Source of the DNA: an uncultured Eubacteriales bacterium
GTDB lineage: Bacteria > Bacillota > Clostridia > Lachnospirales > Lachnospiraceae
Assembly (NCBI GenBank): GCA_900317095.1
Contig: ONFL01000114.1
Coordinates: forward strand, 1 to 37,577
Length of the DNA: 37,577 nucleotides
Direction of reading: 5' to 3'
The stretch's first letter is position 1; each line of letters begins with the position of its first letter. A program made the translations under genes and the position numbers. This document shows, piece by piece, positions 36,139 to 37,577 of this stretch. Below the pieces are notes generated by a model that had not been told where the DNA came from, made no database searches, and saw only the letters and a program-made list of their open reading frames with translations.

Positions 36139-37577
36139 ATGAGAAAGGGAGACATTGTAGAGGGCGTGATCGATCATGTGGATTTCCCGAATAAGGGGTA
36201 CATCCTTACCCAGGAGGGGCCTGTGATCGTAAAGAACGGCATCCCCGGACAGACGGTCCGCGCCATGGTGAACAAGAAAAAGCATGGCCGGGTCGAGGCC
36301 AGGCTTCTGGAAAGGCTGCAGCCCTCCCCGCTGGAGACGGTACAGGCTGTATGCGGTGAATTTCCGGACTGCGGCGGCTGTATGTACCAGACCATGGATT
36401 ACGGGCAGCAGCTGCAGATGAAGAGCCGGCAGGTCCGGCAGCTGCTGGATGAAGCCATGCGGCAAGCCGGCCAGGTGCGGGAGGATGCAAGCCCGGATTA
36501 TGAATTCGAAGGGATCACGGCAAGTCCTGACCAGTGGGAATACCGCAACAAGATGGAATTTTCCTTCGGCGACGATCATCTTGGCGGTCCGCTGACCCTG
36601 GGCCTGCACAAGAAGGGCAGTACCTATGATGTGCTGACCACGGCAGACTGCAGACTGGTCCATCCGGACTTCACCCTGATCCTGACGGCAGTCCTGCAAT
36701 ACTTTACAGACCATCCCATGCCCTTTTATAAGAAAATGAAGCATGAAGGATATCTGCGCCATCTGCTGCTGCGCAGGTCTCAGACCAGCGGGGAGATCCT
36801 GGTGCATATAGTGACGACCAGCCAGGGGCAGTGCGACATGGAACCGCTGGTGGAAGAACTTTTGTCCCTGCAGACCCGGGGGAAGATCGCCGGTATCATG
36901 CATATCATCAATGATTCCCTGGCGGATGTGGTCCGCAGTGACCAGACCCGAATCCTTTACGGCCGAGATTATTTTTATGAGACCATACTGGGCCTGACCT
37001 TTAAGATATCCTCTTTCTCTTTCTTCCAGACAAATACCAGGGGAGCCGAAGAACTTTACAGAAAAGCCCGCGGCTATATCGGTGATATTGAGGACATGAC
37101 AGTTTTTGATCTCTACTGCGGGACAGGGACCATTTCCCAGATCATGGCCGGAGCGGCCCGCAGGGTCGTGGGAGTGGAGATCGTCAGCGAGGCGGTCGAA
37201 GCCGCCAGGGAGAACGCTGCGCTCAATGGCCTGGACAACTGTACATTTATTGCCGGTGATGTGCTGACGGCGCTGGACGAGATTGAGGAGAAGCCGGACT
37301 ATATTGTCCTGGATCCGCCCCGGGACGGCATTAACCCGAAGGCTCTGAGAAAGATCATCGATTACCAGGTTCCTCATATGGTCTACATTTCCTGCAAGCC
37401 CACCAGCCTGACCCGGGACCTGCAGCTTCTGATCCAGGGCGGCTACAGACTGGAGAAAGCCTGCTGCGTGGACATGTTTCCAAATACGGTCCATGTGGAG
37501 ACGGTTGTACTTCTTTCCCACAAAAAACCTGACAGCGTAATCAATGTAAAAGTAGAGTTTGGCGAGGGTGAGGGCAA
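36139..37577 (+). CDS. rlmD: 23S rRNA (uracil-C5)-methyltransferase RlmD/RumA (3' partial)
   Basis: Methylates a uridine of 23S rRNA (U1939 in E. coli). The frame is open to the window end (about 479 codons). N-terminal TRAM domain (1-58), then a probable 4Fe-4S cluster: Cys72, Cys78, Cys81 and Cys171 (C-x5-C-x2-C...C). SAM motif FDLYCGTGTISQIM, DPPRDG, and catalytic Cys419 (YISCKPTSLTRDL) are intact. GGAAGG-GAG precedes the ATG. The normal family ending, HVETVVLL (about 452-459), is followed here by an in-frame tail SHKKPDSVINVKVEFGEGEG up to the window edge, discussed in the findings. Frame to 37577 confirmed; the true C-terminus is outside the window. Confidence 0.94.
   Translation, partial: MRKGDIVEGVIDHVDFPNKGYILTQEGPVIVKNGIPGQTVRAMVNKKKHGRVEARLLERLQPSPLETVQAVCGEFPDCGGCMYQTMDYGQQLQMKSRQVRQLLDEAMRQAGQVREDASPDYEFEGITASPDQWEYRNKMEFSFGDDHLGGPLTLGLHKKGSTYDVLTTADCRLVHPDFTLILTAVLQYFTDHPMPFYKKMKHEGYLRHLLLRRSQTSGEILVHIVTTSQGQCDMEPLVEELLSLQTRGKIAGIMHIINDSLADVVRSDQTRILYGRDYFYETILGLTFKISSFSFFQTNTRGAEELYRKARGYIGDIEDMTVFDLYCGTGTISQIMAGAARRVVGVEIVSEAVEAARENAALNGLDNCTFIAGDVLTALDEIEEKPDYIVLDPPRDGINPKALRKIIDYQVPHMVYISCKPTSLTRDLQLLIQGGYRLEKACCVDMFPNTVHVETVVLLSHKKPDSVINVKVEFGEGEG
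37491..37520 (+). other. Candidate integration site in the 3' end of rlmD
   Basis: The stretch encodes VHVETVVLLS, the conserved 3' end of rlmD/rumA, which is a known target of integrative and conjugative elements. Beyond it, base composition turns AT-rich and the codons differ (AAA AAA, GTA, AAT). The core attachment sequence cannot be defined without the other element end. Confidence 0.4.

Follow-up and report, generated by a model that had tools for sequence, protein, structure and literature searches.

The stretch of DNA analysed here, hereafter the window, is the whole 37,577-nucleotide contig ONFL01000114.1 (C54) of an uncultured Lachnospiraceae bacterium (assembly of 2.07 Mb in 148 contigs), and it ends within rlmD (rumA), which encodes the 23S rRNA U1939 methyltransferase RlmD. 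Contig C54 itself, and not merely the window, terminates at position 37577, where the reading frame 36139-37575 is still open and reads ...FPNTVHVETVVLLSHKKPDSVINVKVEFGEGEG. The RlmD sequence is native through codon 455, and the TIGR00479 (RlmD) profile (E 2.6e-88, residues 24-454) is matched up to its final position at residue 454; the enzyme is therefore complete before the remaining tail, which lies outside the enzyme family. A first-pass annotation, made from the sequence alone, had correctly observed that the frame stays open past HVETVVLL and had ascribed the end of the gene to an integrative element. The features of this region are collected in Table 1.

Table 1. Features at the 3' end of rlmD in the window (LSR, large serine recombinase).
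Feature	Position	Strand	Evidence
rlmD/rumA, native part; 3' end forms the left (B) half of the attachment site	36139..37505	+	TIGR00479; 66-73% identical orthologues in three genus members
Crossover core GAGACGGT	37498..37505	+	rlmD-, LSR- and free-end junctions become identical from here; repeated directly at the two ends of the R. bicirculans element
Opening 72 bases of the integrated element, forming the right (P') half-site and read as codons 456-479 of an RlmD::tail fusion and cut by the contig end	37506..37577	+	L128 and L146 match at 71/71 compared bases; tail start in 48/397 family genomes

The junction was observed directly by comparison with other bacteria. All 71 bases compared to the right of the core are identical between the window and two loci of other bacteria, one of which carries an rlmD::tail fusion (L128) and the other a fusion of the tail to an LSR gene (L146). 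In a table of 128 junctions, the sequence left of the core varies with the fusion partner, save for a short, often common CATGT, whereas the same module follows on the right; rlmD rows agree with the window at a mean of 90% right of the core and 65% across the 33 bases left of it. The tail is thus foreign, as the first-pass annotation had proposed, and the switch follows the core, about 12 bases upstream of the point named there. The reported fall in GC content is real (43% in the 72 post-core bases against 56% in the rlmD body), but 23 of 432 same-size stretches within rlmD (step of 3) are equally low, making it weak evidence by itself. The accompanying shift to A-ending codons was confirmed (7 of 23 tail codons, compared with 11% for the rlmD body), a level reached by 4 of 433 overlapping stretches of the body. 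Sequence identity at the junction is much stronger evidence than composition. When 1,683,613 bases were scanned with a junction site score, all 135 sites found lay on the same strand; the scoring matrix was trained on these very sites, so that only the strand contrast is informative. It is very probable that positions 37498-37505 are the left junction (attL) of an element placed by an LSR in the 3' end of rlmD through a reciprocal swap of 3' ends.

In the excised circle, the LSR gene would run on in frame at its 3' end into the tail-coding DNA (attP, an LSR::tail fusion). The LSR would recombine attP with rlmD (attB) and exchange the 3' ends; after integration, rlmD would have gained a tail of ~110 residues and the LSR a short native rlmD end. 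Two such states of a single LSR, 96.4% identical over 555 residues, were found: a tailed form of 660 aa in genome G323, and a form of 555 aa in G032 (contig C32) that ends in the short native rlmD end ETTVETVCLLSCK (VETVCLLSCK before the stop). Moreover, a complete conjugative element, 43,111 bases from core to core, was found in Ruminococcus bicirculans 80/3. Its three-domain LSR (Resolvase and Recombinase domains in Pfam) ends in VETVCLLSRK, and joining the flanks by script yields an unbroken RlmD ending in GHVETVCLLSRK. According to Pfam, the element encodes a MobA/VirD2 relaxase (PF03432), a type IV secretion system (T4SS) coupling protein, a TraG P-loop protein, a lysozyme-like/CHAP protein and ParA. 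All of the functions that the first-pass annotation proposed to seek to the right of such tails, namely relaxase, type IV secretion and integrase, were thus found in this relative. A second VETVVLL-coding copy had also been expected at the far end; what R. bicirculans has at both ends is a short direct repeat of 8-9 bases, which suffices, a full copy not being needed. Loss of the tail would presumably alter LSR activity after integration.

Judging from the sequences that follow related tails, an integrative and conjugative element (ICE) of the Tn1549-like kind is the most likely occupant at the window, because at both loci with the identical tail start the tail leads on to the left end of such elements, with ParA/ParB. 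Over 1,692 bases that take in ParA directly after the tail, L146 and L128 show 99.2% identity, and the same ParA gene comes next at L138 and L139, whose tail starts match that of the window at 96%. Clustering of 107 segments downstream of tails gave 45 clusters, 14 of which have two or more distinct left flanks; in 11 of these 14 the left partners are of two or more kinds. The largest cluster (32 members, 31 distinct left flanks) holds all four window-like loci, and this membership, together with ParA after the tail, leads us to expect an ICE here. At the left end of window-like elements, ParA/ParB are followed by an open reading frame (ORF) of ~1,380 residues, by eye a surface protein (L146 10452-14597, L138, L121). 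The proposal that the window stops just inside an integrative element is accordingly supported by the junction at the core, the identity to L128 and L146, the R. bicirculans element and the empty sites of sister genomes described below; in the window genome, cargo would begin immediately to the right. The opposite outcome, a gene that soon ends and gives way to host genes, is contradicted in the relatives, and in the relatives only, where the left end runs into element genes.

Several observations weigh against the window's own element being an intact ICE, as it presumably is. Its known DNA amounts to 72 bases. The bacterium's own assembly yielded no further tail copy, no LSR in a search with a relative's protein, and one 151-residue fragment only in a search by family. 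Comparison of the first 10 kb of the L146 element with this assembly recovered only the last 84 bases of the contig and one 58-base match (no relaxase search was made there); relaxase and T4SS are known from R. bicirculans, the own assembly lacking a matching element interior and right end as far as compared. Similar tails elsewhere begin small segments without this LSR, for which reason an ICE is not certain, and a minority variant or an assembly artefact at the contig end could also be at play.

The DNA right of the window might instead be a small LSR-free cassette, consisting of a tail, 2-5 kb of cargo and an rlmD-like right end, either alone or stacked before an ICE. Among the 21 listed spans between successive junctions (2-10 kb, two duplicate-fetch pairs included), 20 lack an LSR of the one family used as query, and cassettes do sit directly after rlmD, for example at L050 and L059. 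Nevertheless, we consider such a cassette rather unlikely here, given that the two loci with the identical 71-base start and the two at 96% all continue into ParA and not into cassette cargo. Far less probable is an assembly chimera: the contig, one of 148 in this genome, ends 72 bases past the junction, yet the join falls exactly at the core of 128 other tabulated junctions (some loci fetched twice) with the frame kept, and the stretch common to the partners at the join is short.

Sister genomes allow the empty site to be read directly, a comparison suggested by the first-pass annotation. A genuine rlmD orthologue is present in three of the five other genomes of the genus (73%, 70% and 66% identity), and all three lack the tail, ending 6-7 residues past the core with HIETVCLLTHS, HTESVCLLSRIK (CLLSRIK) and HTESVCLLERS, each before a stop; the remaining two genomes have paralogues only, at ~37% identity. 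These native ends indicate that the tail of the window is an acquisition, and contradict the opposing expectation of a tail in all close relatives with no element downstream. The least probable explanation is hence a native, lineage-specific RlmD extension inherited vertically: the tail is in frame and under purifying selection, but it is absent from these orthologues, its 22-residue start occurs patchily, in 46 of 334 genera (48 of 397 family genomes, that of the window included), and the same tail DNA is also joined to LSRs and other ends. A same-genus RlmD paralogue (L006 1501-1878, G001:C23; about 37% identical to RlmD of the window) bears a diverged second tail family ending in FRHFQMI before the stop, which implies that the integration site is used in both paralogues.

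The complete tail is a module of ~110 residues, fused in frame to RlmD or to LSRs, or free-standing. With the 110-residue tail of a relative as query, 434 of 474 candidate stretches were confirmed in genome_contigs, the best 80 of which (79 loci) were kept, and 15 of 25 in viral_contigs. The 114 loci examined gave 145 tail matches; 17 were dropped as short of the tail start or below 70% identity, which left the 128 rows of the junction table, labelled by script as 58 RlmD, 16 LSR and 54 free. Such C-termini thus recur on the rumA proteins of relatives in place of the native end, as the first-pass annotation had stated. Of the rows labelled free, two belong to RlmD (L141_0, cut by a contig end, and L144_0, with a stop 125 codons upstream) and three are of LSR type, cut or short (L086, L147 and L148). 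RlmD and LSR rows were labelled by open frame, which could conceal out-of-frame joins among the free rows; in the 600 bases to their left, RlmD or LSR ends were recognizable in four (L086, L141, L144, L147), each joined in frame, and no out-of-frame end was seen.

The tail is under strong purifying selection: the pairwise ratio of nonsynonymous to synonymous differences (pN/pS) is 0.085 on RlmD (45 unique sequences), 0.118 on LSRs (13) and 0.112 in free tails (46), with 9 rows excluded, the three values not being independent since tails move between contexts. Internal stops occur in 1 of 57 RlmD, 0 of 16 LSR and 4 of 52 free rows, and diverged tail families retain a common spacing and the core T-Y..I..Y...G..V...YIA..K...G. 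Pfam returned no match to the tail at E 0.1, and PHROGs families of unknown function only (phrog_27283, E 1.9e-7; phrog_37379, E 0.0044); the former match, obtained with the tail at L044:5558-5887, places the tail also in phage-labelled sequences. No match was found in plasmid and phage collections with a 20-residue query, which is too short to be conclusive, and a PDB sequence search gave nothing convincing (best E 0.1). Modelled alone, the tail reached a mean predicted local distance difference test (pLDDT) of 65 and 69 PDB structure matches with E up to 10, the best at 1.6, and we therefore claim no function for it. A model of the LSR::tail fusion (12 sequences; pLDDT 72, predicted template modelling score 0.32) has a low-confidence linker at 549-587 and helices at 601-663, their relative placement not being interpretable; together the models suggest a flexible start followed by a helical part. 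Our best guess is that, in the circle, the tail modulates the LSR to which it is fused, and that RlmD tolerates it because the enzyme is already complete where the tail begins. That such tethering can work is shown by an engineered fusion of an integrase to its recombination directionality factor, which changes direction (excerpt of PMC5737554). For annotators, the C-terminus of RlmD in the window is element DNA and the contig is broken at an integration hotspot; the 22-residue tail start offers a cheap marker for such elements at broken contig ends.

The rumA/rlmD 3' end had been cited as a documented ICE target, and for streptococci this is borne out: excerpts of Ambroset et al. 2016 (PMC4701971) describe rumA serine-integrase ICEs in which the 3' parts of rumA and integrase are reciprocally exchanged, with a change of frame. 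The tail exchange as such is therefore already published for streptococci. As far as these excerpts and those on integrative and mobilizable elements (IMEs; PMC5704250) go, the streptococcal elements resemble ours in the single serine integrase, the rumA/rlmD target, short direct repeats, attR inside the integrase gene, a reciprocal 3' exchange that alters both C-termini and, in some, Tn1549-type modules. A junction at the rumA 3' end with a short core is present in the window (37498-37505) and its relatives, and attR within a single serine integrase gene with reciprocal 3' exchange was seen in the relatives R. bicirculans, G032:C32 and G052. Unlike the streptococcal ICEs, the present RlmD and LSR fusions keep one frame and receive a conserved ~110-residue module, and no out-of-frame join was found within 600 bases left of the 54 free rows. 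Phage Mx8, as described in the same excerpts (PMC4701971), likewise has attP inside its integrase gene and swaps a C-terminus of 112 residues for 13 upon integration, but its enzyme is an unrelated tyrosine integrase. By analogy with Mx8, Ambroset et al. considered that pre- and post-integration integrase forms may differ in function (PMC4701971); the swapped tail makes it a testable question whether the integrated integrase differs functionally from the excised one. Among the matches listed in literature on rumA/rlmD serine integrases (titles and abstract openings, mostly open-access, bioRxiv preprints aside), no report was found of a conserved in-frame tail module, nor of LSR-free defence cassettes of 2-5 kb at rlmD.

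A typical LSR-free segment in the relatives comprises a tail, 2-5 kb of cargo, often of defence type, and an rlmD-like right end. The 'class A' right end, conserved over ~110 bases, occurs at 15 places in 14 of 397 genomes (reversed control of the pattern: 0 among the matches listed; exact pattern in viral_contigs: 0). What follows it is a tail-1-type module in 6 cases, a variant tail in 4 and a short end in 5. Over the 33 bases that precede the core, class A scores higher against rlmD (0.50) than against LSR ends (0.36), a column-permuted rlmD control averaging 0.277 and reaching at most 0.419 over 300 trials; when the final 5 bases are disregarded, the scores are 0.44 and 0.31, with a control maximum of 0.43. 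Class-D right ends are LSR-like by eye. At L089, L092, L132, L135 and L143 another right-end class lies left of the core, an rlmD-like GATATGTTTCC-type stretch and then an insert with a GACATC-like start. Two genera (G008 and G293) share a cassette at 94.6% identity over 4,303 bases; the similarity stops within a few bases of the core on either side, and the flanking DNA differs. Three places were candidates for a lone cassette followed by the native rlmD end: in G267 the presumed native end turned out to be left over from an ORF of another element, in G314 it (LLSKFKPKEPISLNLEEMN) may be a truncated variant tail, and for G008 two others of 61 genomes had any match, sharing at most 59 bases; such an arrangement is thus not proven.

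In 26 segments, some ends of which were fixed by eye, every one of the 62 cargo ORFs (minimum 100 aa) shares the strand of rlmD, compared with 45 of 63 in a left-flank control, and 23 of the 26 hold 1-3 cargo ORFs (repeats removed); after RlmD::tail, the next ORF on the rlmD strand starts within 120 bases in 22 of 46 cases. Pfam matches listed for the 62 cargo proteins (25 of 37 families, overlaps between families retained) are YhcG nuclease 8, DUF1016_N 7, AAA_15 4, AAA_21 4, GmrSD_N 3, subtilase 3, AAA 3, RhuM 2, AbiEii 2, AbiEi 2 and HATPase_c_3 2, with one each of Cap4 nuclease, DUF4435, HerA and DNA-methylase. Ordinary genes such as flavin reductase and glycosyltransferase also appear, so that the defence-type share is roughly half at most. 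None of these 25 families is a conjugation or mobilisation gene, the 10-kb L056 span lying outside the scan. PADLOC profiles were set aside as defence evidence for being unspecific: the cargo matched 292 overlapping families in raw searches, and the 63 control proteins also matched 51, of which 25 were listed, all UvrD/helicase-type models in 7 members.

We tentatively raise the possibility that gut Clostridia harbour an integron-like, LSR-driven cassette system in rlmD, in which LSR-free cassettes ride with an ICE, stay behind and renew the landing site. Each cassette would combine a tail and a right end mimicking rlmD with a cargo of, as a rule, 1-3 genes in the same orientation, frequently of defence type. 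As pictured from the arrangement of these sequences, an ICE and cassette would exit together by attL x attR and enter a new host, where the ICE could leave alone, stranding the cassette beside rlmD to be read from the rlmD side; the rlmD-like far end may then accept the next element, while the portable tail would let each element reuse the same in-frame junction. Homologous recombination between the ~330-base tails could also shuffle cassettes. If true, in many gut Lachnospiraceae a single short site beside a housekeeping gene may serve to collect and expose defence genes.

SCC (staphylococcal cassette chromosome) elements at rlmH similarly pair a serine recombinase with the 3' end of an rRNA methyltransferase gene and form stacks; they differ in target gene and recombinases. 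Closer are the cis-mobilizable elements (CIMEs), which, according to excerpts of PMC7563491, are decayed ICEs/IMEs that keep their att sites, form integrase-free cargo segments in tandem with ICEs, and measure 1.2-13 kb in Streptococcus salivarius tandems. Unlike these, the commonest small segment here has a conserved ~110-base right end, more rlmD- than LSR-like, across genera and with varying cargo.

Contigs break within tens of bases of the rlmD 3' end in several genomes (L004, L009, L062 and the window; G005:C105, G003:C49, G385:C74), two of them tailless. Behind different left partners, pairs of AbiEi/AbiEii-type and DUF262-type genes are met repeatedly as units (L046 2904-11371, L050 3186-7598, L127 2068-3590). 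Finally, one whole contig of 3901 bases (L043, G259:C148) starts and ends in tail copies that differ at a few bases, and resembles the middle unit of a tandem array rather than a circle.
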